NCBI GenBank assembly: GCA_023014365.1
Contig: JAEBUN010000001.1
Coordinates: 2,170,001-2,234,000, forward strand
Length of the DNA: 64,000 nt
Direction of reading: 5' to 3'
Origin: Lepiota brunneoincarnata
Lineage: Eukaryota; Basidiomycota; Agaricomycetes; Agaricales; Agaricaceae
Shown here: piece by piece, positions 553 through 60,729 of the stretch
Numbering within the stretch: position 1 is the stretch's first letter
How the letters are laid out: each line of letters starts with the position of its first letter
The notes under the pieces: model-generated
Told to the model about the DNA's origin: nothing
Seen by the model: the letters and a program-made list of their open reading frames with translations, nothing else
Database searches by the model: none
Position numbers and translations under genes: made by a program

Positions 553-2641
553 ATGTTCTTCCGGGCGCCACTAATCCTAAATCTGATCCCCGCTATCCTG
601 CTTGCCTCCATAGTTCTTGGTGGTCCGAATACTGACACAAGGCTTATTACCCCAGAAATCGACAAATATATTAGAACCATTATTCAACAATGGAACTTGA
701 CAGGAGTCGCTCTCGCCGTCGTCCGTCAAGATCCCCAATATCCAACAGGATGGTATCAGGAAGTTTCAATCCTACGGCATTGCCAAGGCAGACGGGACCC
801 CAGTTACCCCCGACACGTTATTCCCTGTAGCATCAAACAGCAAACTCTTCACTGCTTTGTCCGTCGGCCTCTTGATCTCGAATGAGTCCTTGAAATCGGA
901 ACGGAGAAGGGACTTGACATGGTTCACAAAAGCAAGGGATGTCTTTGGCGACCTGTGGGGACTCACGGATGAAGAAGCCAGTCGCGATACAAGCATCCAA
1001 GACATGCTGTCTCATCGCACAGGCCTACCCCGTCACGATGGGTGTATCGACAGGATCAAGGGGGGACTTGCCGAGAAGGTGAGCACCTGTTGCTCCCTTG
1101 GATTGCCTAACCGGTCCGCGCTATAGATCAGCAAGCTGCGGTACCTTCGACCCTCTGTAGAACTCCGTGCATCGTATTACCAATACAACAACCTGATGTA
1201 CGACTCTCTGGGATATTTGCGGAAATCCTCGTGAATCAATCCATCGCGCGCTACGCCAGTCAACACCTCTTCACACCTTTGGGCATGACATCTTCAACGT
1301 ATTCGATTGCGGAAGCAGAAGAGAGTCTTATGGCCCATGGGTCTCAGATTAGTGGACAGGATCTGAAGCGGGGTCTGGGAGGCTCAAAGAGAGCCATCGT
1401 GCCGTATTATCAGCGTCCCGGAAGGGAGGACATCGACGCTGGCTCAGGTGGTGTGATTTCGTCTGCCAAAGACATGGTACAAACTTGTTATTGTTTCAAC
1501 GTTGCCTACCCTGACACCAATAACTCGCTACAGGCTATGTGGGTTGCCATGCTCATGGCTCTCGGAAGGCATCCTTATAGGGATCAGATGGTTGTAGCCT
1601 CAGACGTTGTGGAACATGTTACAACTGGAGCGTCTATAGTGAATGGTCGTGGTGTTTTCCCAGAAATGGTATTGCCATATCCTCCGCCGTATATCATATC
1701 TCCTTCATATCTACCTTTTTTAGAGTGCGCAAGTTTACGGGGGAGGGCAAACCATATATTCCTACCGAGGTTACGAAATCACTGAACACGGTGGGAACGT
1801 TGCGGGATTCACCTCGAGAGTATCTAGACTGCCGAATAACAACCTTGGCATTGCCCCTCAACAATGACTTTATTGCGAGCATGGCACTGGATGCTATCAA
1901 ATGGCGCATTGTCGATGAGCATGTTGTCAGGGCTGCCATTCCTGGAAGCCCTGTCATTGACTGGAATTCCAGGTAGGCACAATGCACCACGCCGTATCAC
2001 GGACAGTACATTGATCGGTGTGCTCCAATTGACACAGGTACCTAGGACTGGAAAAGGCCCTCTCGGAGACCAAGAACGCTTTCACCTCCCGTACGCAGGA
2101 TGCAGAATTACCTGACCTGCCATTCATCGAGCTTGAATGGAGGACATATAACCACCCCGCGTACGGGGTTCTCCAACCATGCTTAGTTCCGATTCCCTTG
2201 CAGCCCGGTCGATACCTAACTCAAGAAACACTTAAGTCCCCTGCCAATCAATGTTCCTCGATGCTCAGCTCCCTTCCGGTCCAACGGATTCTAAATATGA
2301 CAGATCTCTCGATACCCGCTTTCATCATCCCGCTTACAGGACTAGGGGACACCCACATTCGCTTGTGTCATTTCATGGCCAACATTTTTAATGCCACGGC
2401 AATGTTTACGAACGCTGAGGTGCGTTTGAAAGAGGGGCTTGGAGTGGTTGATGAAGATGGACGGTGGATAGATGACGGGGATGTAGTTGTTCCTTTCCAA
2501 GAATTTCTGGTTGAGTGGGTTACAGATGGAGAGGAAGGTATATCGTTCCGTGGAGATGCGTGGGGCATGGGGGCAGGTGCGATGGAACCGCTGGGGGTGG
2601 GAAAGGACGGGGCGGAAGTGTGGTTCGCTAGGATATCTTGA
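553..2641 (+). pseudogene. secreted serine beta-lactamase-like protein, three frame breaks
   Basis: This matches the class C beta-lactamase / penicillin-binding-like family (Pfam Beta-lactamase), which in fungi is often secreted and of unknown substrate. The start at 553 opens with a hydrophobic signal peptide (MFFRAPLILNLIPAILLAS). The SxxK serine motif reads VASNSKLFTAL near 830-860 and the Tyr-x-Asn motif reads YQYNN near 1180. The C-terminal half (about 2030-2641) is the extra beta-rich domain often found in these proteins. Introns are visible at about 1078-1126, 1480-1533, 1667-1729 and 1974-2037. The frame breaks three times: near 762 (one extra base), near 1222 (one missing base) and near 1858 (one extra C in a C run). 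Between the breaks the protein is well conserved, so it is either a recent pseudogene or an intact gene with consensus indels. Confidence 0.7.
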
Positions 2642-2769
2642 GCCTCCGAAATGGAAAAGATCTCGCCGAAGCCATTACCCGGAAGAAATGATATTTCAAT
2701 TTCACTTCACATTATGAGTAGCCATAGGGAAGTATATCGACGACCGCACACCACATCGCTACGCATCCT

Positions 2770-3654
2770 TCAAAGAGATTCAATCGCGCCCGGAAAGAAT
2801 CCAGGCCCATTCTTGTTCTCATCGTACCAGGGCTTGTCGTGCGCCAAAATCACCCTAACCCTTGGAATTTCCATCAACTTCCTTATACGCTCGATCGTCT
2901 GCTCTGCTAGCTCCTTGCTTTGATGTGCGCAACCACGCTGATGACCCCAAGCAATCGCAGACTTGCCTGTGATTATGTTCCAGTGATGGGCAGAGTCCCC
3001 GGCGAGATAAATCCATCCCCCGTCAGAACTAGTGCGCACGAGGAGGTTGATATGGCCCGGCAGGTGCCCAGGAGCATCGATGACATATACACTCCCATCC
3101 CCATAGAAGTCGTATGCGCGAGGGAAGGGTCCGATCGGCTGCCAGCTCAAATCGTCACCCAGATACCTAGTCCTATCCTTCGGCAGAATGTCGTCTGGAA
3201 AGTGGGCATTCGGGTTCTGGGGATAAAGGCCATTCTCCAGAAGCTTGGTTGTTTCTCCGCCTACAACGATCTCACTTTTGGAGAAGAGAACGGTGTTCCC
3301 GGCGTGGTCGAAATGAATGTGCGATAAACACACTGTGTTGGTGTGGAGGGGAGATAGGCCGCCTTTGAGCAAGGACTCGACCACGTCCTGTGGGATTTCG
3401 ACATTGAATGTTGTTGTTATCGCCTCGATCACACTAGGCGGGAAATTTTCCCAATCCTTGCGTATGCCAAGATCAAACAGGAACTTTTTCCCGTTTGACG
3501 AGTGTTGGAGAAGGAACGAGAGAGACGGGGCTCTCTGACGGTCGTTTGGAGTCGTATTATCGATGAACATCTCGTAGTTCAGGAATATATGCCCCGCCTC
3601 TAGGGCAGAAACGGTGCAGTAAGCTTGGTTCTCGGCGGGAGACGGCAGAGACAT
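2770..3654 (-). CDS. metallo-beta-lactamase fold hydrolase, lactonase-like
   Basis: A single-exon protein of 294 residues. The metal-binding motif HxHxDH is clear (SHIHFDHAGN, about residue 110), followed by PGHLPGHINLL, LAGDSAHH and ILAHDKPWY. These supply the further His and Asp ligands of the two-metal site. N-terminal blocks such as FLFDLGIRKDW are typical of the N-acyl-homoserine-lactonase-like branch found in bacteria and in many plant-associated fungi. The substrate cannot be read from sequence; lactone or ester hydrolysis is the inference. No signal peptide is seen, so it is probably cytosolic. A tandem copy lies 330 bp away on the same strand at 3986-4881. Confidence 0.85.
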   Translation of the reverse strand: MSLPSPAENQAYCTVSALEAGHIFLNYEMFIDNTTPNDRQRAPSLSFLLQHSSNGKKFLFDLGIRKDWENFPPSVIEAITTTFNVEIPQDVVESLLKGGLSPLHTNTVCLSHIHFDHAGNTVLFSKSEIVVGGETTKLLENGLYPQNPNAHFPDDILPKDRTRYLGDDLSWQPIGPFPRAYDFYGDGSVYVIDAPGHLPGHINLLVRTSSDGGWIYLAGDSAHHWNIITGKSAIAWGHQRGCAHQSKELAEQTIERIRKLMEIPRVRVILAHDKPWYDENKNGPGFFPGAIESL

Positions 3655-3985
3655 GGTGGGATATTCTTGATCGTTCGATTCACCGTAACACTAAACACTC
3701 CTAAGGAGACTTGAAACACTTGCCCATGATCGTTACCAACGGACCGGGCGCTCATGGGTCACTGGTACATGAATGCCATGACATGCTCCCCCGTGATGCC
3801 GGCCCGAGTGTTGGAGGTGAGACTCCGGCAACTGGGGCGGCAAGCAACCCTGACGCACGGGAGCACAGCGAAGTAAAGCATTGGTTCGAGATGTAAGTCC
3901 GGAGTGACAGAAAGATCACTTGTAGTACATAACGGGGAGCTACAGGTAAGCATACCAAACCCGATTGCACATGTCAGTGCATCCT

Positions 3986-4881
3986 TTAAAGAGATTCAAT
4001 CGTACCCGGAAAGAACGCAGGCCCATCCTTGTTTTCATCATACCAGGGCTTGTCGTGGGCCAAAACTACTCTGACCCTTGGAATTCCTGCTAGCTTCCTT
4101 ATATGCTCAATCGTCTGCTCTGCTAGTTCCTTGTCTTGATGTGCGCAGTCGTGCAGGTGGCCCGGATGGCCACACGCAATCGCGGACTGGCCTGTAATTA
4201 GGTTCCAGTGATGGGCAGAATCCCCAGCGAGGTAGATCCATCCCCCGTCAGGACTTGTGCGCGCAAGGAGATTGACATGGCCCGACAGGTGCCCAGGAGC
4301 ATCGATGATATATATACTCCCATCTCCATAGAAGTCGTAGGCACGAGGGAAACGGTCCGATTGGCTGCCAGTTTAAACCATCATCCAGATACCTCGTCCC
4401 ATCTGTTGGCAAGAGATCGTCTCGGAGGTAGGCATTCGGATTCTGGGGATAAAGGCCATTCTCCAGAAGCTTGGTTGTTTCTCCGCCTACAACGATCTCG
4501 CTTTTGGAGAAAGGAACGGTGTTCCCAATGTGATCGAAATGGACGTGCGATAAACATACTGTGTCGATTTGGAGGGGAGATAGGCCGCCTTTGAGCAAGG
4601 ACTCGACCACGTCCTGTGGAATTTCGACGTTGAATACCGTTTTAATCCACTCGACAACACTCGGCGGAGAGTTTTCCCAATCCTTGCGTATGCCAAGATC
4701 AAACAGGAACTTTTTCCCGTTTGACGAATGCTGGAGAAGAAACGAGAGGGATGGAGCCCTCTGACGATCGTCTGGAGTCGTATTATCGATGAACATCTCA
4801 TAGTTCAAGAATATATGCCCCGCCTCCAGGGCAGAAACGGTGCAATAAGGCTTGATTCTCGGCAGGAGACGGCAAAGACAT
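3986..4881 (-). pseudogene. tandem second copy of lactonase-like hydrolase, frameshifted
   Basis: This is a close duplicate of the gene at 2770-3654, in the same orientation, with an upstream region of similar length. The HxHxDH motif is kept (SHVHFDHIGN), as are LAGDSAHH and the C-terminal LAHDKPWY. Compared with the first copy it carries one extra base near 4850, just after the start, and another near 4352 (GGGAAACGG against GGGAAGGG). The full-length frame is therefore broken twice. It also differs by a short insertion before the CAHQ block (AIACGHPGHLHDCAHQ against AIAWGHQRGCAHQ). This shows independent divergence rather than an assembly echo of copy 1. It may be a decaying paralog, or an expressed gene with sequencing indels. 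Confidence 0.75.
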
Positions 4882-5125
4882 AGCTGGGACGTTCTTGACC
4901 TATTCAATTAGCCAGTAATAACCCTAGGTGGCCATGAAAATACTTGCCGACAGTTACTAGTGGGTCGTGGGTCGCTGAACGACATGGCACAGTAGCTCCC
5001 TATTTATCCTCTGTCCGGATCTTGGGAATCGGACGAATTGATGACCCCCACGGTACCCGAGCTGGGAGGAAAATGATCCTGATGCATGGGAACACAACAG
5101 ATCTTCCCAAGTGATCTGCTTCTAG

Positions 5126-7828
5126 ATGCAAGTCAGAAACCATCTACCGAGATATCATATGATGTCGTGCGTCATCGAAAGGGCCTGTGATCGAGTTGAG
5201 TCGACCCCTCAGAGCGCATATATTCTGAGCAGTTACCTATATCATCGACTATATCCGGCGCAACCGAAATCTATGCTATACTCTCGAGAGCAACTCAATG
5301 ATCTGGATGTACGTGTTAACACCTCGACCCGATCACCAACTTCAGTTACTGACTTCCTGGAGGACTACGATCTTGTCAAGGAGGTTGGGCAAGGTCGTCG
5401 GTGTGTCATTTACGAGGCGGTCTGCAGGAGAGGAAGAATGCGCAATCGACTACTTGCTTTAAAAAAGGTGAACCTGGTGCTCCTCATCCCATCTGTTCTA
5501 CACGACGTGAACTTTCCAAGATCACCCTTCCAGGCCTGCCCGACAGAGCCAATCGCGAAGTAATCGAATATGCAAAGATGCAACAAGAATTGTATCATCC
5601 AAACATACTCTCGTTATACTCGACATTTTTTTCACTAGACGTTTACGTTCAGGTCATGGAGTATTGTCCAGAAGGCAATCTGGCCGAGTACATGAAGTTC
5701 AACAACCTTTCGTCACTCCCAAAATCGATGTTGTTTTCCCTATTCAAGGGCCTCTCAAACGCCCTTGCCTATCTCAAGGATCGTGATATCGTCCACCGGG
5801 CCATACATCCCACAAACATCTACTTGGGCCCAGATCAAAGGCCGGTAAGCTGTTCACTATTGTGTACATAGCCCCAGCCAGCATTAATTCCCGATTCGAA
5901 GAAACTCACTTGCTTTGAAAATGCCATACGACTACCCTCCGCATGGGCGCCTCTACCCCTCTTAACCGAGTATACCTCACCGTGAGTCTTGCGTCCTCAG
6001 AGCCATCGCTAAAAACTGATGTCTTGATCAGCGAAATCACACAGGGATCACCAGGAAGCTTCCCCGCCGACATCTGGTCATTGGCATGTGTAGTCTATTA
6101 TTCACTCACAGGCCAATCCCCACAAATCTGTGTGAGTAACTTTACTTCTAAGGTGTCCTATTCCCGTGTACGACCGGGAGAGTTACAGAGGAAGGTCCCG
6201 GTCAAAACCGCAATGTCAAGTCTGGACTGTGATTCTCAGCTCCGTGACCTCCTTGTTGAAATGCTAAATTGTGTTAGTGCCCTCGGAGTGCTTGTGTCCT
6301 AATAATCACTGATATAGAAAAAAAGTCACCGTCCGATCGATTGTCCATCGGCAACCTGGTAACTCACCAAATTTTCGGACATCCTGCGAGAGCTCCGACG
6401 AACCAAGTGACCATAATGCCTTCACCCGAAGATGATGTAATGGTCAAGCGGCAGACCCTTGTTCCTGTCTCCGGGTTTGGTCGCAATTACGAGCATGCTC
6501 TAGGACAAAAACCACGGGCTTCGGTTATGCGCAGAGTATCCCTTGACGGTGTGGGCGATGTTCGATTGGAGCGTCCGCCTTCCGATTATCCGGCAAAGAA
6601 TGATGGTCTCAGGTTCCATACTACGAAGCGCATTGTGTCCGACCCTATCCCACATCGCGGAACCAGATATGCTGCAGCCCCTGTACAAGACAGCGGCACG
6701 GTAAACTTCGTATCGAGGGGTCTGTCCAAATTACCCTCACCGAAAATTTCAGGTGCAGTGAGTCCTCCCATGGGGATACGGACTGCGTCGAACGCTTTGC
6801 CGGGGGTGTGTTCATCCGCGGGTCACGGAACGGATTCTGGAACCTTGCCAAAGATGGATTCATCCTTTTTGCGGCCGCAGTCGCAGCGCTCCAGGGAGGG
6901 TCAGGTTTCAATCCTTCGTAACCGGCATGTCCTTGTTGACTTTCGAAACTCGTCAATGGCCAATGTAGCAACCAATAACAAGGTTCATGATAATTAACCC
7001 GAAACAGGATCTAGTGAGTTCCTCTGCAAGGCTCGGTGCAATCAAGCTTCATTTTTTCGCAGATCAACATTTACGAGGGGCCAATTCTGCACGATCAGCT
7101 TTCTGATCCAGTGTACCAGTACTCACGAGTAACCTTACCAACCGACTTCTGGTATCAGTATCGAGCAGCCTTCATTGTAATCGATCAGATGAAGCAGAGG
7201 ACATCCAAAGTATGATAGAGATCACGATCATCAACCCCTTCTCACTCAACGGTTCAAGTTCATTATGTTCACAGACGATGGCAAGTATACTCAAATGGCA
7301 AACGGGCCACCCTCGGATGTCGAGGCGACATTCTCGCCAATCCCCGTATCTCAGAAATCAGAACAGGCTCAAGATGATTCAGCGGTGCTTCGCATTCGCT
7401 ACTCCGAGGCACGAAGTCTGCTCGAGTTCAGACGATATGTGGGAGAAATCAATGGGAGATCATGGATGAAGAAAAGCATTGTTTCTATTTCCAACCTAAG
7501 AGCAATACCACAAACCGAATGGGACAAGTTGGACGACATCGAAAAGCACTGCCTTTACCGCCTGATAATATTCGCTGAAACTTGCAAGATGATAGAGGAC
7601 CTGAATTTGGCAACGCGGTCGCTGGCACCCCTGCAGGACACGGGCCTTGAAAACCAGGGAGAGGCATTACCTTCAGCAACGGTCGCAGAACATGTATTCA
7701 ATATTCCATCCGTGGGCCCCTTTCCCGGGCTGCTGATACCCCGACGCCCAAACAAGCTTTTTGAAACTCGTTTGGACACTCCCTCCGAATTTCGGAGTGA
7801 CAAGTTGACGGTCGAGTTGCGAGGGTAG
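5126..7828 (+). CDS. PLK4/SAK-like protein, predicted pseudokinase
   Basis: The N-terminal kinase-fold domain spans about 5360-6400. It shows a degenerate glycine loop (VGQGRRCVIYEA), the ATP-binding lysine region (LALKK), HPNILSLYSTFF, a catalytic loop reading IVHRAIHPTNIYL and, after an intron, the activation segment KLTCFENAIRLP followed by TSPE and DIWSLACVVYYSLTG. HRD is changed to HRA and DFG to CFE, so both catalytic aspartates are missing. The layout with HPNILxLY and the SPE block resembles PLK4/SAK more than other kinases. The C-terminal part (about 7060-7828) has FWYQYRAAF and MANGPPSDVEATF segments that resemble polo-box regions of PLK4. Introns are visible at 5468-5520, about 5845-5899 and about 5971-6030, with more after 6270. 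The start is uncertain: 5126 is the longest, 5273 is possible. A scaffold role is inference. Confidence 0.6.
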
Positions 7829-51704: not shown

Positions 51705-51973
51705 ACCAAGAGTGGAATCCAAGGGCAGGATATCTGAACAAGCTTAAGCGCCAAAACGTCATTCAAGGATGCAGCACAGCACGTGAACATGATTATACAA
51801 GTAATCTATACAACAAAGTATATAAATGTTAATCTTTCTCCTGATTCCGCCAATTAAGTTGTTGCCTCATGATCTCATGCGAGTCGTGCACATAATGTTC
51901 AGACTCCTGTCGTTCAAACCTGTAAAGGGAAAGTAAATCATTTGTCTTACTGTGCCAACAAATTCAAAACTGC

Positions 51974-53150
51974 TCACTCGACTTTAGCACCCTTGACATG
52001 CATGTCAGGCTCACGAAGGGCGAAGGGGTTGACATCGGTATTTGGGTTGAGATTAGCTAGGCTGTGGTTTACGAAACGGTGCGTGGTTTCGTCAGACCGT
52101 ACTGCGTAAATAACATCAAGTAGTTTAGCGTCCTTTGGAAGACGCCAGTAGTCAATTGCAATCTCCGGTGCTGGCATATCAGTCCTTAACATGATGTGAG
52201 CAAATCGAAAGCCGAAAGGGCCGGAGGACGATCCTACCATTCAGGGATCCGGCCGGCCTCCAAGTCAGCAATGCAACGAGTGCTAGCCATCGGTAAGAGA
52301 CGAATCGGCACAAACAATCACTAAGACACCTTACTATGTCAATACAGCCTCCTCTTCAAGGTGACCAACAAACCGGTGACAGGCGCGAGGAGAAATAAGG
52401 TACGATAAGACTGCAGAGAATTATTGAGCTGCTTATTCACCCAAGATAGCGATTGGACTGACAGAACAGGTTGTAAAAGACACCCTGTGCACCAAGAACT
52501 AATGCTCTGAAGAATAGCGATGGCTTCCGCAAGTGCATGAAAGTCCTGTTTGCAAAATTAAATTCTCTTACAACACACAAAATAGATCGCACATACATGA
52601 GATGCATTCTCTCGTTCTCAGCTTCCTCAAGGCAAGTGTGGATCCTGGATTACCAATAAGTCGTGAGAGCGATCTTCGGAGTTGAAAGCACTGACCATCC
52701 ACTGTCACGACGCTAGGGTACCAGGTTAGCCAGCCGGAAACCAGAGTGATGGACGCACTCACCATAAGCCGGAGACTGGTTAAATGACGTAATGTTGCGG
52801 CAACCATGCCTGGTACTCCAGCGATACTTTCCAGGAACAGGATCCTCTGTAAGCTGGGTTGGCATCATCAACGAGGTTCCGAATGGATAGGCACTTACAT
52901 TTAGCCAAGCTTTGTCATCCAGAAGATAACCGGCTTTACGAAGCTCAGCGATGGTCATTTTTGGATCAGGCGGACCATCGACATGTTTGTAGCCGGAAAC
53001 CCAGTCGAACATTGTACGGGCAAACCTGACAAGGCCATAGGCGAACTTGTCAGAAATTGACTTCCTCTCTCTGAATAGGACCTGGAAATGGTTGGTGATG
53101 TGATCATGTCAAACGTGACTTCCGCATACCTTCACAGCCCTCAACTCATC
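51974..53150 (-). pseudogene. AOX1: alternative oxidase, 3' part (gene split by transposon)
   Basis: This holds the catalytic part of the mitochondrial alternative oxidase, a di-iron ubiquinol oxidase that bypasses complexes III and IV. From the break it reads LRAVK, intron, VLFRERKSISDKFAYGLVRF, TMFDWVSGYKH, RILFLESIAGVPGMVAATLR (first Glu ligand), [19 protein letters not shown] (E..ExxH), HLEEEAVLTYTRCIADLEAG (Glu) and [18 protein letters not shown] (ExxH). All ligands are present and all seven exon joins keep frame, so there is no decay besides the insertion. Without its 5' part it has no presequence or promoter. The 7-bp duplication ACTCATC at 53144-53150 marks the edge of the transposon. 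Confidence 0.92.
53144..53150. repeat. 7-bp target site duplication, left copy
   Basis: ACTCATC directly abuts the left end of the element. An identical copy abuts its right end at 60326-60332. One copy belongs to the original AOX exon. Confidence 0.9.
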
Positions 53151-53185
53151 CCCAGTGAAAAATCCCAGGACCCTGACGGACCAAG
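53151..53185 (+). repeat. left terminal inverted repeat
   Basis: Inward from the edge it reads CCCAGTGA, a 15-base diverged middle, then TGACGGACCAAG. Aligned with the right end without gaps, it matches at the outer 8 and inner 12 positions and differs at about nine positions in between. Confidence 0.85.
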
Positions 53186-53600
53186 AAGGACTGACGCAGA
53201 ACAGTCTGTGGAGGTCCTTGACAGTCGGTATGGAGCCTGGAGGCAGGAATTTCGGGTGGCTCAAACGACTCGTAGGGACTTCCAACGACTTAGTTCTGGC
53301 ACGCTCGGTATCGCTCCCCAATGCCTCCTTTATTCCTCATCCTACATAATAACTAAATTTGGTAATGCCGACCCGACAACCGCCGTGCGCCCCCGCGCCT
53401 CCACCCATCCCCATCTGGCTACCTCCGCCACCCGCCCCTTTGGTACCCACCCACCCTCGCTACCTCTACCGGACTCCTTCCCTCAACCATATACCCTTCG
53501 GATGGACCATGTGTAAAGAGAGAATAATGATATAGTATGCTGTCAGTCGAGCGTAATGAGAATGAGGCTCAAAATCGTGTAAATCACTCACCATGTGGGT

Positions 53601-56600
53601 TCAGTTAGTGTCCTGAGCCTTCTTCTTCCCGCCGCGGCGTGTTGCTTGCTTGGAACGAGCTTGAGATTGTTTTGGGGCACTCTGAGCTTGCTTTCCCGAA
53701 GCTTCAGTGAGCGAAGCGGTCATGGTTGCCACATAACGCTGGCACTAGCATAAATACATGGTCAGTAACAAAGCTGATGACGTGGCAACTGAAACAACTT
53801 ACTCCTTCCTCCCTGAAGGGCTAAAACATGACAGAGAAAGGCGAAAGTCATCGAAAGTCAGAGGATATTTGAGAACTTCAACATTGAAGCATACCTGCCG
53901 CTCAACTGGGGTCAGACCGTGCCACCAAGCTGTGAAGTGCTTGTTCTTGTTCTCTTTGTCATTCGCGTGTTCGAGTGCCCATCGTACACCAGCAATGTGC
54001 CTAAAATGATACAAAAATACATAGAATGATTACAATAGAGTAACACACTCACTCGGTGCGATGACTTTTTGCATTCGGCTTGTATTTATGATTGGGATTG
54101 AGTCGAGAAACTAGTGATGTAGCTTCACCATAGAGCTCGGGCTCGTCCGGGGCAACCCCTGAAGCTGGATCCCATGTTGTGCTGCCAGGATCTGTGACTT
54201 GCCGGCCCACTGCTTGGGGATCGGCTTCACCCAGTTGAGATGAGGGTACAACTTCTCCCCCAGTATGGAGTGAATGGTTAACGACAACAGCATGGGAAGG
54301 ATGGTGATGATGAGCTGAGGTGAGGTCTTGTGATTGGAGGCCGTTGGCGTTAGGTTGTGATGAAGGAACGACACTGGGATGTCGTGCGTGACTATTTGCA
54401 TTGAAGGGGCCATCAGGAACGTCAGGTGGCAGCTGGTGATGGCTAGAATTCAAGCACGTTAATCAAGATATGTTCAAAGTAAATTAATCTCAATGGACAA
54501 CAAACCTGGGAGTGAGATTGGGACGACGAAACTTGCTGAGACTGTGGAATAATACAGTTATGCTGATTATTAACCTGAGACGGTCCGAAAGCTTGTGGTT
54601 GCATTGAAATTGATGGAGAATGCGAAGTAAAAGTGGGATGACATGGGGTCGAAACTGGAGATTGCAATGTGAGAGCTGGAAATGACGGTGGTGATGAATG
54701 AGACTGTGATGCAGGAGCCTGAGAATGCGGTGTGAGAGACTGAGAGTGTGATGCGAGAGACCAAGATTGAAATGTGAGAGGCTGCAATGTAAGAGAGTCT
54801 TGAGAATGTGATGCGAGAGAAGCTTGAGACCGTGATGTGGGAAAACTTTGAGTCTGCGGCACAAGAGACTGAGTGAGTAGAGATTGTCGAGGCTGTGATG
54901 CAAAAGGATCTTCCTGAGACCGCGGAGAAAGAGACTGCGACGACTCTTGAGATTGCGATGTGACGACCTGAGCCAACTTGGGCGGGAGCTTCTGATGTGA
55001 TGGGGGTACCAAGTTGTTCTGCCAATGATTGTCAGATGATAAAGCACCAGTGCACGGAAACACATACTGTCAACACAACTCCAGGTCTCGCTCCCCCAGG
55101 AGCAACAAAGGCTGGGACCTCAGGCATTTTGTGGCCAGGACAAAGGGTAAAGCCTGAGGGATTGGACAGTATATCGTGGTTCATGAAATTGGGGTTTGGG
55201 CCGGACGTTGGCTGAGCATGAGGTGCTAGCAAATGAGCTGGAGCTGGATGAGTCACAGGTGTTGGAGAAGGTTGCGGTGTGTGAACGGGGTGTGTGCTGC
55301 GAAACCCTACCGAGGGAGTTGCAGGTGTTACATACTGACGTTCTGGGTGGGAAGGGGTTGGCTGGTGCAGGGATGGCATCACCTGCGATGGTCCTGGTGT
55401 CTTCAAGGCTCTAGCTGGTGGTGGCATCTAGAGAGATTGGGTTAGAAGAAGGGGCAGGTGAAGGATTAGCAGCTGATGTACCATGGATTTTGACCGCTTC
55501 CAGGTTGGTGAGTCGACTGCACCAGGTATCTCGGTGCTTGCCCGCCTCTTTCCTCGAGTCTTCTCAGACCCACCCTGAGGCGCAGGGATAGGGTCACGGT
55601 TCGCAAAACTTGAGTACTTGAAGTTGTCGAGGAAAATTTCATATGCCTTCCAGTGGTTCTCGCACAGCTGAAGGAGAGGATGTTTCTTTTCCATAACAGC
55701 AAAGTAATGATCCAGAACCGTATCACCAACATCACCTAACTTTTCAGGAAGGACGCCAACACGGTAGAAATCGTTCCAGATGTGACGAGCTGTTGCCCGG
55801 ATTTTGTTGGCTTCGGCCTTTGAAACTGGTTCACCTGTGGGATTGACAATGTAGTAGGCGGTGGCATTATCAATGTTCGCATCAAGGGACTTGTAACTGG
55901 AACCATTGGACTTGAAGCTCAGCCAGGTCGATCGTATCCAGAAGAGTTTGACCTGCTCATGATGTAGTTTTGGGGCTTTGATTTCACGAAGCGGCTTCTC
56001 AAAAATCAAAGGAGGTATACCACCGATGTCATTGATATGTCCAAGGAGGCTCTTATAAAGCGATCTGTCATAAATAGTTAGCAAGGTGCTAAAAATGATA
56101 TGTTTTAACTTACTCAGTTTGGCTCAACTTGGCTGAGAGCTCGATATTCTCTATCCTCAACTTCTCAACCATCTTTGAGAGGCTTCGTCCATCCCTCCTG
56201 CTTTCCTCCAAAGCTTCTACACATTTCCTGACAGCAAGGTTACCAGACTTGATCAATGATTCAATCGAAAGAGTAGGGTTGCGTAGGGATGGCTCAGGCA
56301 GGGCAACAACAGTTGGGGAAGACAGGGATCGGATCTGCGATAGAACGTCAGTATGGGTACTTTGGAGAGCTGGGAGCATTACCTGAGGGGATAATGAGTG
56401 CGGTGAGGGTGACTTGTTGTTGTCTTCTTTGGAAGGCTTGCTGGTGGCTACTCCATGCTCGGCACGGAATTTCTCCTGGAGACGGGGAGGTAGGCCTTCC
56501 CAAGGCTTGTAATTTTGCTCACGATCACGCTCGTACTGTGAGATATTTGTGAAATCAAATGTGTCATTGTCAGGGTCATACCCTGGTGGGAATATATTGG

Positions 56601-56727
56601 CAAAATTGTCGAGCATCCGATAATCTTGCGTTGATAAACCCAGTTGGGACTCGGAATTTTCCTGAGAGAGAATTTGAGTATAATGGTTAGCATCACGCTC
56701 AGCAGATTTGTCATGGCATGATCCCAT
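53601..56727 (-). CDS. second gene of the transposon, unknown accessory protein
   Basis: A gene of several exons, predicted at about 800 residues. The N-terminal part has FDFTNISQYERDREQNYKPW and a coiled coil (KMVEKLRIENIELSAKLSQT). A conserved-looking globular region follows after an intron (SLYKSLLGHINDIGGIPPLI, VKLFWIRSTWLSFKSNGSSY, ARHIWNDFYRVGVLPEKLGD). The middle is Pro/Ser/Gln-rich with degenerate S-Q-S-H repeats (54500-54990). Near the end come HIAGVRWALEHANDKENKNK and FTAWWHGLTPVERQ, then a basic tail (ATRRGGKKKAQD). I recognise no enzyme domain. Its place inside the element and shared strand suggest an accessory protein comparable in role to TNPA of plant CACTA elements; that is inference. 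Splice joins I checked keep frame. Confidence 0.65.
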
Positions 56728-56853
56728 AGCAATAGGAGGAGCAGAAAGCGATATACTGATAATTGTCAAGTAGAATAAGGGACAGTCTTTGTGTATACTA
56801 CTATTCTAGGTTTTCTGATGGTGCATCAATAACTATACAGTTAATTGATCCCA

Positions 56854-59800
56854 CTATTCCCCGGCTTCCTCATTGTCGTAGACATCGGTAAAGGCCCCAT
56901 GGTCTGCATTCACACCTGTATCATGCTCAAGGCCAGCCCCTAACTGTTCAAGAATAGAATAATATCCTTTAAACTTTGGGTGAGGCAGAGCAGCAACAAC
57001 TCCCTGAATATTTTTTGCATGGTATACCCGGTAATTGAATCTCCCTGGATAATAGCAAAGGGTCAGTGCACCATGAGACTGTGCAAGCAATTCTGGGTCG
57101 GGCTGGGAGAGAACTGAAACCATAGCACATGTTTCAATTCCTCCTGGATAGCTACCATGACCAGGAAGTGGTTGGAGTTCGGCAGAGAAGAAATATAAAA
57201 TCTCGGCATAAACAATACTGTTGTTTGAGATGATCTAGAAGGGTATTTGTAAGGACTCATTTAAATCCAATAGATGTGTAACAAATAGCATACCTTGGCA
57301 AACCGGGAACGACGACTGTTTGGCCGTAAGTCCTCCTTCCAAGCAGAACGAACTCGTTGTCCATTTGGGAGCTGCAAGCGGGCCCAGCGAGTGACACCTA
57401 TTTCGGGAGGTGGCTGAAAAGCGAATGCATGAAAAGCATTTGCCTCAATGCCTTCAAGGTAGTATTGGTCTGGACCTTGTGGGTGTAGGAGAATGTAACC
57501 ATGGCCAAGATCCTGTTGTTTTGTGGGTCGCTTTGGTGCCATCTCTAATTCAAGTGATCCAATGACATGAGGGTATCGAACCATGAAACCATTGATGGCA
57601 GTTCGGTCAATCCCCAACTCAGCAAGGTTTGAGTATGGTTCAGAATGGAGTCGAATATCCTGGCCGAGATAACCAATCAAGCGCTCCATCACCCATTGAG
57701 CAAAAGACTGTATTGGTCCCAATGTACGAGTCTCATGGGCCAAATGCCACAGGGTATGAAGACATTGGCGGACAAAATGGATACGACCAGGGTGTCGTTG
57801 TACGTAGAAGTCCTCGAACCCTTCAAGGAATGATATAATGAGCTTGCGACCCTCTTCGATTTCCTCCTCAGTGATAGAGCGTTGACTAAAGATGCGAACA
57901 GCTCGCACCAGACAATAGAAATTGCCCAGATATGGCTGCGGAAGAATACCCTGAAGTAGGACAGGGAGATATCCATAGACATAAGTAAGATACTCAGCAG
58001 CTTTGTAACCACTACTGAGTTTCTCTGCAGGATTTCGGGGGGGACGGTCATACTCGGAAGGAAGATGCTTGCGGAAACTGGCAACTACTTCGCCATGAGC
58101 TTCCCAGACATTGTGGTCCATTAGAACAGCCCAGTCCCAATTATCCTTACTATCACCAGGTCTGACTGCAATGTTCCCTCGCCACAGACTGAGAAGGAGG
58201 TCAGGGATGTTGAGGGCAAGGAGATGCATTGAATCCAGGGGGAAAATGCCTGGTACCCCAAACGCAGTCTGAATTCCGCTAAAAATTGATGGCTTGACGA
58301 TACCATTCAATTTGCGAAGTGCTATGTATTGGGGAACGGTTTGGGTCCGCAGTAAATCCTGGATGTCCTGTTTGTACTGGGCTTGAGAGAACTCGACTGG
58401 CCAAGTGTGTAATGATATGTCATCGTGGTTGGAGTTGGGAACATCATAATTTCTACCAGGGCACTTGCTGAGTGGATAGTATGTTGATTTTTTTGCTTCA
58501 CGACGCCCAGGAAACTTGCACATTTTACGACAGCCTCGTGCACCATTGTGGCCAACATACCCAGAGACTTGGGCCATGCCCAGTGCGTCAGCGCCAGCCA
58601 AGGCAACCAGTGGTCGCTTTTTGATAACCTGGTGAGTGGAGGCATCAAAAACAAGGAGACCTTCATTCTGCAGAGCCGATATGTGATAAAGACCAGGAAA
58701 CAAGAACGAATCAAGGTTCTTGGGTTTTCCAGGTCCTGGAATAAATCCACCAGGAAGAACGTGGTGTTTTTTGTACCGTGTATTGGGAGCAAGGTCAAGA
58801 ATCACCCAAATATATATCCAGCAGTCCGAAGCCTTGTGCTCGTATAGCTGAGCACCATCGATGGAGAACATGAGGAGGATATCATCGTTGTTGATTGAAC
58901 CATGCTCCACACATTTTTGATACCATTCGCCACTGAAAATATCCGTAAAGACCTTAGAACCTGTTGACGACATGATAGGCATGGAGGAAAGGAAATTTTG
59001 TCGGTATTTTATGGTCTCCACGGATGATCGGCTTGCAAAGAGAGACTGAAGTGAGGGACCAATTGGAATAGTGTATGATTGCTGCACCGCAACCTTCTTT
59101 CCCTGTTTCTCTAGAACATCCCAATCCCATCGTGAGGCATTGCACTTTGGCTCAGGACAGGTATCGCGATCTTTGAATGGACCTGTAAAAGCGACGCAAG
59201 AATTTGGACACATGTCTGTCCGGATGGGAAATACACCAGTGACTTTTTGCATCCGCCGCTTAGTCTGGTCAAACGAAAGGAGGCCAGCCTCAGGAGCCCA
59301 TGAATTGATCCATTTCTGAAGCTGGTTAAACAGCCGATTGGGGTATTTTTGCAAAAGGAGGTAGAGTTCAAAGCTTCGCCGAAGCTTTGGGTCCTTGTCG
59401 AGATCGTAAGTTTCTTTTGGTTCACGAAGAAATTCAAGAGCATCCTCAGATAGGCCTGAGTTGTCAAGAGTTGCCTTGTCCAGTAGTTCTATGAACTCCC
59501 TCGCATGCTTTAGCTCATCATGGCTGATAGGAATATCGAAATTTGTGAAGGGGTCGAGGGGATCTACATCGTCAATATCAGGGTTTTCCAGGACATCATC
59601 AACATCCTCCAATTGACGGCTTTCATCGTTGTGTGCTGGTGTAGTCGTAAAAGCCTGGCTATGGCCTGGGCTTGGCTCAAAGATATCCCGGAAATTATCT
59701 GGCGCATCATTGAACTGAGGCTCAATCGGTTCCAATCGCATCTGCGGCTGCAATTCACAATGTTGGCGTGCATTCTTTCAGTGGAAAATAAACACACCTG

Positions 59801-60076
59801 TCCCGGGGCACCTGCAACTGGTGCAGAGCTAGAGGCTGAGGCCGTCTGCTGATTGGGCTCCACAGTGGGCTGGTTTCTCTGTTTCTTCCGGTTCTGCCTC
59901 CTTTCCTCCATTCTGGCTCGAGTGTCGTCTCCAACCGGATTATGAGCATAAAAAGCACTTTGGCTAAGTGTCTTCATCTGCCCCTTGCAGTATTTCCTAC
60001 AGTCACACCAATATTTCGCCGTATTTCGGTCAAATCCTCGCTGTTGTGGCTGGTATGGCTGGTCATTCTCCTTCAT
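56854..60076 (-). CDS. Tnp2-family transposase
   Basis: Three exons, about 1,040 residues. Exon 1 (60076-59800) encodes a Cys-containing motif (KYWCDCRKYCKGQMKTLSQS, then AFYAHNPVGDD), likely a DNA-binding zinc finger, and a basic Gln/Ala linker. The long second exon (59750-57290) has the transposase core: FPIRTDMCPNSCVAFTG, CPEPKCNASRWD and DILLMFSIDGAQLYEHKASD. It continues with ALAGADALGMAQVSGYVGH, ARGCRKMCKFPGRR, FPLDSMHLLALNIPDLLLSL and FVRQCLHTLWHLAHETRTLG. Acidic residues in SIDGAQ and LDSMH fit the RNase H-like DDE fold expected of Tnp2. A 3' exon (57240-56854) adds SIVYAEILYFFSAELQPL and LALTLCYY-like beta strands ending in an acidic tail. No stop or frameshift interrupts it. Confidence 0.88.
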
Positions 60077-60290
60077 TTTAGGATAGTAGTAGTAGAGGGG
60101 AAAGGATATATATAACTTTGTCGCTGTCAACGACGTCGACGAGATCGTCTACGTGGCAAGTTTGACAGCGAGAGTCGATGTGGCTCTGTACAGCTCGATG
60201 GACGCATCATCAATTGATGGTGTCTTCGAAAAGTTCCCTCAGGCTCGACGCGACTTTCCATTTCCATCCATTTAATCCCTCTCGCTCTTC

Positions 60291-60325
60291 CTTGGTCCGT
60301 CAGGTTCTAGCAACTTCTCACTGGG
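60291..60325 (-). repeat. right terminal inverted repeat
   Basis: Read inward on the minus strand it starts CCCAGTGA and reaches TGACGGACCAAG at the same spacing as the left end. It ends TCACTGGG on the plus strand next to the second ACTCATC copy. Confidence 0.85.
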
Positions 60326-60332
60326 ACTCATC
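60326..60332. repeat. 7-bp target site duplication, right copy
   Basis: ACTCATC, identical to 53144-53150. Keeping a single copy restores the AOX codons for Y-S-P-D-E-L-R-A-V-K exactly. Confidence 0.9.
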
Positions 60333-60729
60333 AGGGGAGTAGACGGGGTGGAAGAGCACCCAATCACCACGGACCATAGTCGGCACGGTGCTTACAGCGG
60401 TATGCTTCGTGAGCTCCGACGAATTCTGGGGCGACAGTGGTGGCGTGACTTGGTCCTCTGCGTGATATGAGGAAGACATTGAGAGATTCGAATATAAGAA
60501 AAAACATACGATAATGCCTTCCTGTTGCCTCTTTGTGCGCGGTCGCATCGTTCAGATTAACACGCCGGCTGCTCGAGCTGAGGAAAGTTCGTCGGGGCGA
60601 AGTAACGAACGTATGACCGCAGGGTTGGATAAGACCCAGGATGACCGACGTCGCACCAACATTGCGCATCGGTAGCCCCGCATGGCACAAAACAGAAGGA
60701 CGTATAGCAGAAAAGGTAGTTTTAAGCAT
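60326..60729 (-). pseudogene. AOX1: alternative oxidase, 5' part (gene split by transposon)
   Basis: The first exon starts at 60729 with a mitochondrial presequence (MLKTTFSAIRPSVLCHAGLP, later SPRRTFLSSSSRRV). After an intron at about 60458-60508 the second exon has DQVTPPLSPQNSSELTKH and ends in the AOX-specific block VRGDWVLFHPVYSPDE. The next residues of the family (LRAVK-VLFRERKS) are found 7.2 kb away at 53143 and beyond. Transcription from this promoter would now read straight into the element, giving a truncated oxidase of about 120 residues with no iron ligands, unless the element is removed or spliced out. Confidence 0.92.

Follow-up and report, generated by a model that had tools for sequence, protein, structure and literature searches.

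Transposon-broken alternative oxidase (AOX) genes are not new in fungi, since in Aspergillus niger a Ty1/copia retrotransposon disrupts aoxB, with the insertion found among six alleles of this second AOX gene (PMC10219456). The case considered here lies in a 64,000-nucleotide stretch of Lepiota brunneoincarnata (contig JAEBUN010000001.1, positions 2,170,001 to 2,234,000), hereafter the window, in which an AOX gene is split inside an exon by a 7,175-bp DNA transposon. Both are fungal AOX genes broken by a transposon, but the A. niger case involves an acquired second paralogue and a retrotransposon, whereas here the only AOX gene seen is interrupted by a DNA transposon. The disruption of AOX is clear, but events of this kind are familiar; the part more worth following is the RAG1-like element itself, with its 7-bp duplications and target sites centred on TSA.

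Insertions in related mushrooms provide further context. In Marasmius oreades, transposition is reported for monokaryons but not for the dikaryon (PMC9674265), and by analogy a monokaryon is a setting in which such an AOX insertion could arise. The mating locus of Agaricus carries a transposon without an intact transposase, with 9-bp duplications; the same paper names ABR1 together with hAT-type elements (PMC10051438). The closest descriptions of the transposon itself come from a 2025 survey, the available text of which gives 2-5 bp target duplications and usually CA..TG ends for the CMCT clade, 2 or 3 bp duplications for Plavaka, and 7 bp duplications for Kyakuja and hAT7 (PMC12730594). Within that text, a 7-bp duplication length is not given for the CMCT clade.

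An AOX gene split within an exon

The features, in window coordinates, are as follows.

60326..60729, minus strand: AOX N-terminal piece, with start codon, presequence and the conserved VRGDWVLFHPVYSPDE at its end; exons 60729-60510 and 60457-60326, separated by a 52-nt intron (60509-60458)
51829..53143, minus strand: AOX C-terminal piece, with the whole di-iron catalytic domain in ten exon parts and its own stop codon
53151..60325, minus strand: DNA transposon, 7,175 bp, within the AOX exon; the only full-length copy among the matches listed in the assembly
60326..60332, minus strand: target site duplication GATGAGT (ACTCATC on the plus strand), N-terminal side
53144..53150, minus strand: target site duplication GATGAGT, C-terminal side, 7/7 identical to the other copy
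60286..60325, minus strand: terminal inverted repeat adjoining the transposase gene, CCCAGTGAGAAG...
53151..53190, plus strand: terminal inverted repeat, opposite end, CCCAGTGAAAAATC...
56854..60076, minus strand: transposase gene, 3 exons, ~1,037 amino acids (hand prediction), Tnp2-type (PF02992) DDE enzyme with a RAG1/Transib fold
53601..56727, minus strand: second element gene, 9 exons, 889 amino acids (hand prediction), with a Ser/Gln-rich middle

A first-pass annotation made from the sequence had proposed that a transposon, described as fresh, divides the AOX gene into two co-linear minus-strand pieces, and this division is borne out, with two corrections to its exon limits. The C-terminal piece has one more exon (51919-51829) after the end originally placed at 51974, and the N-terminal piece does end in VYSPDE, but the codons for D and E lie in the 7-bp duplication and not before 60333. 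The frame is open in both pieces, and all nine introns of the C-terminal piece are 48-58 nt long and GT-AG. Relative to intact homologs, the N-terminal piece stops at alignment index 240 and the C-terminal one begins at 242, the residue between them being the codon split by the insertion, such that the pieces abut and the frame can be restored with all di-iron ligands, as had been predicted. The ligand motifs LESIAG, EENERMH, HLEEEAV, and SDETTHR are all in the C-terminal piece, and so are 6/6 of the Glu and His positions that we take, from structure 3vv9, to be the ligands; the AOX profile (ten rows) matches three solved AOX sequences, 3vv9 among them. The locus therefore has the six ligands of the AOX family (PF01786) without being one uninterrupted coding gene, because the element splits it, and read-through from the N-terminal piece reaches a TGA after DESQ, two codons into the element.

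When the fragments were placed on an alignment of 120 AOX relatives, they deviated at none of the 146 columns with at least 95% conservation. The relatives themselves, scored in leave-one-out fashion, deviated at a median of 1 such column (range 0-11), and five of the 120 had more than five gaps at conserved columns. A tree of the C-terminal piece and 30 named relatives from this set grouped it with Leucoagaricus, Leucocoprinus, Macrolepiota, and Agaricus with support of 99/99 and a short terminal branch of 0.093, a placement by which the host is taken as a member of the Agaricaceae. The gene thus appears, from its sequence, to have been sound until the element split it. Separately, the database protein for Leucocoprinus leucothites AOX (P0131) is without a 16-residue stretch holding two ligands, apparently through an error in the gene model.

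The ends of the element form a 40-nt inverted pair matching at 31 positions, a value reached by none of 200,000 random point pairs in the window (best, 25), and they are flanked by the exact 7-bp duplication at 53144-53150 and 60326-60332. The inverted ends, the length of the insert, and the duplication all agree with the first-pass annotation. Both element/AOX junctions lie within one 3.97 Mb contig, and both element genes are open. No relatives of the second element gene were found in a search in which its repetitive words may have swamped candidates. Tandem repeats of 21-24 nt occupy window positions 54699-54837, within the Ser/Gln-rich part of this gene.

A search of the assembly (55.6 Mb, 95 contigs) with PF01786, a check that had been proposed at the outset, returned three matches, all within this locus, and thus no second AOX gene, a result that holds for this assembly only. 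The AOX flanks used as DNA queries (575 and 1,651 bases) each matched once, to themselves. The allele is very probably null, as first suggested, because translation would meet an in-frame stop and the entire catalytic domain would be lost, and the AOX protein, a backup respiratory enzyme, is probably absent. The exact duplication and undecayed exons fit the description of the insertion as fresh; both its recency and the activity of the transposase in this copy are putative readings of the sequence.

The element family and its target sites

A DNA search of the genome with the element gave at least 41 matches. Among the matches listed, element positions 1190-6938 are covered by the AOX copy only, indicating that the others are shorter copies without the transposase; a more sensitive comparison of this interval with the retrieved loci found only matches of 67-203 bases at 68-76% identity, at three loci that carry distant relatives of the transposase (L005-L007). 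Four further copies are complete between their ends and internally deleted, with lengths of 1,302, 1,300, 1,307, and 983 bp; three of them have exact duplications, and the one on contig C47 has a single mismatch. Two of these four are 99% alike. A 7-bp duplication is therefore present in all five complete copies, including the one in AOX. The copies on C10, C28, and C14 are 98.9-99.7% alike over their aligned parts, a sign of recent movement of the family.

The pattern NNTSANN, whose frequency across the window is 0.038, was found at 11/11 distinct target sites, comprising the AOX site, those of the four other complete copies, and six single ends. The C47 site was scored on the left copy of its duplication. 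Because C78 and C28 share a duplicated stretch, one end that repeats an insertion already counted was dropped, and the count leaves out some end-reaching matches, namely C21:659749 and, for C78/C28, the far ends. The outer CC/GG is present in 16 of 17 ends, the AOX copy included, with the exception, on C78, reading CTC. An alternative parse, with a shorter duplication and CA..TG ends, was ruled out by these outer bases. The duplications and ends of the family independently confirm the ends and the 7-bp duplication of the AOX insertion.

The transposase and known transposon groups

The transposase shares 45-51% identity with its six top-scoring relatives. Its PF02992 score of 27.8 bits is under the Pfam cut-off of 28.6, with relatives P0002, P0006, and P0020 above the cut-off. 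Residues D307, D397, C416/C420, H674/H678, and E698 are invariant in 25 aligned sequences, and the assignment of catalytic roles among them is putative. Of 53 matches in a protein search of the genome, the AOX copy alone spans the whole query without a stop, although intron sequence may account for some stops in the other matches, and the next-best match is 36% identical. One end of the nearest relative (36-37%, on C55/C56) reads CACTGGG, as in the present family, followed by GTTCAAA (L076:6874-6887), a TSA-centred 7-mer; its second end turned up neither in the 8 kb that were read nor in a pattern search of C55.

Like the CMCT clade, the transposase has a D-D-E triad, CACTA/Transib-like, whose second D and last E enclose a Cys pair and an H(3)H pair, and it has the RAG1/Transib fold. 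In contrast to that clade, as described in the available text of the survey, the present family has 7-bp rather than 2-5 bp duplications, ends of CCCAGTGA..TCACTGGG rather than CA..TG, TGT..ACA or CATCA..TGATG, and C(3)C rather than C(2)C (PMC12730594). Judged by its sequence, the element works like a CMCT transposon yet falls outside the duplication rule of that clade as printed. EnSpm/CACTA elements differ in their 3-bp duplication and CAC..GTG ends, and Plavaka elements in their 2-3 bp duplication and TGT..ACA or CATCA..TGATG ends; the Plavaka model was absent from the Pfam matches of the transposase, in a scan that drops most matches above E 0.1. Kyakuja (KDZ) shares the 7-bp duplication but has CA..TG ends without inverted repeats, unlike the 40-nt inverted repeats here, and hAT7 also shares the 7-bp duplication. 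Agaricomycete Tnp2-type transposases (PF02992), the best named of which are from Leucocoprinus birnbaumii and Agaricus bisporus, have the same DDE and Cys/His motifs in a comparison of proteins only.

Neither a CACTA/Tnp2 element with 7-bp duplications nor a transposon in a mushroom AOX gene was found among the papers listed in searches of the open-licence PMC literature, which did not extend to Repbase; nothing relevant on AOX in Leucoagaricus came up either. The chances appear about even that the family represents a distinct mushroom transposon lineage, with a RAG1/Transib-type transposase, a 7-nt stagger, TSA-centred sites, related non-autonomous copies that have moved recently, and its sole autonomous copy found in AOX.

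Competing explanations and significance

The locus as a whole is best explained, with high confidence, by an autonomous cut-and-paste transposon in an AOX exon, leaving an allele without a catalytic domain in its product. A complete, apparently autonomous transposon would have entered the exon at a site centred on TSA, leaving a 7-nt staggered cut that the host filled to yield the 7-bp duplication. The predicted transposase would be a RAG1/Transib-fold DDE enzyme of a CACTA-like clade, from a family that seemingly also made shorter, deleted copies and was recently mobile. Transcripts from the AOX start would enter the element and meet a stop two codons in, encoding a fragment of no more than 119 residues that lacks the catalytic domain.

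Several observations weigh against parts of this account. The right duplication copy on C47 has TAA in its centre. Over the longer matches, identity between the AOX copy and the shorter ones is only ~80-88%, which makes the former a relative of the shorter copies and at most a putative source of them. The element end CCCA|GTGAGA also resembles a splice donor (GTGAGA at 60321, four bases inside the end), and three acceptor-like AGs near the other end (53173, 53191, and 53206) keep the AOX frame. It is conceivable on these grounds that sites in its own ends let the element be removed from the AOX transcript by splicing, with a short in-frame insert left where the catalytic part begins, as three of the five AGs tested keep the frame without a stop. 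Such an intron would be ~7.1 kb long, compared with 48-58 nt for the ten AOX introns, and the insert would land in a conserved stretch, making this route highly improbable. Erroneous joining of the element into AOX during assembly deserves equally little credence, given that the exact 7-bp duplication obeys the rule of the family, both junctions are in one large contig, and the flanks are single-copy. Slightly less remote, yet still improbable, is the idea that AOX had become dispensable and begun to decay by the time the element arrived; the pieces offered no supporting point, and the unchanged conserved columns (0/146), the intact introns and ligands, and the short end branch (0.093) all argue against it.

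A more serious alternative concerns the state of the strain. Mushroom mycelia are often dikaryotic, and the insertion may be in only one nucleus of a dikaryotic or multinucleate strain, with the fungus AOX-positive via the other. The stretches around C78:43612-43949 and C28:3434-3773 match at 99.6% over 3,340 bases that take in both flanks, and those around C56:67161-68384 and C55:90322-91485 match at 99.6% over 2,690 of ~4,200 bases, with a single flank covered. These pairs are possible haplotype duplicates or segmental duplications, and some alternative haplotypes may have been retained in the assembly. Each AOX flank tested nevertheless occurs once in the assembly, and a homeobox-KN search gave two places above the cut-off on different contigs, unlike a doubled set and too few to judge dikaryosis. 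Insertion in a single nucleus is thus a tenable but somewhat doubtful reading.

Elsewhere in the window, a gene with a Lactamase_B fold (2773-3690) adjoins a similar open reading frame (4248-4907) with a diverging end, perhaps a decaying tandem copy of the former. Scans of the window for tRNA genes, Rfam families, and tandem repeats did not alter the interpretation of AOX or the element.

If the strain is homokaryotic, or if both nuclei carry the transposon insertion, it would be a natural AOX-null mushroom, which would let the need for AOX in growth, stress, and fruiting of Agaricaceae be tested. The locus is also a ready-made excision reporter. Loss of the element could be put under selection or be scored through respiration. 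A transposon with a RAG1-like fold and an unusual 7-bp duplication would further offer a chance to see how the stagger of the cut is set in this group of enzymes.
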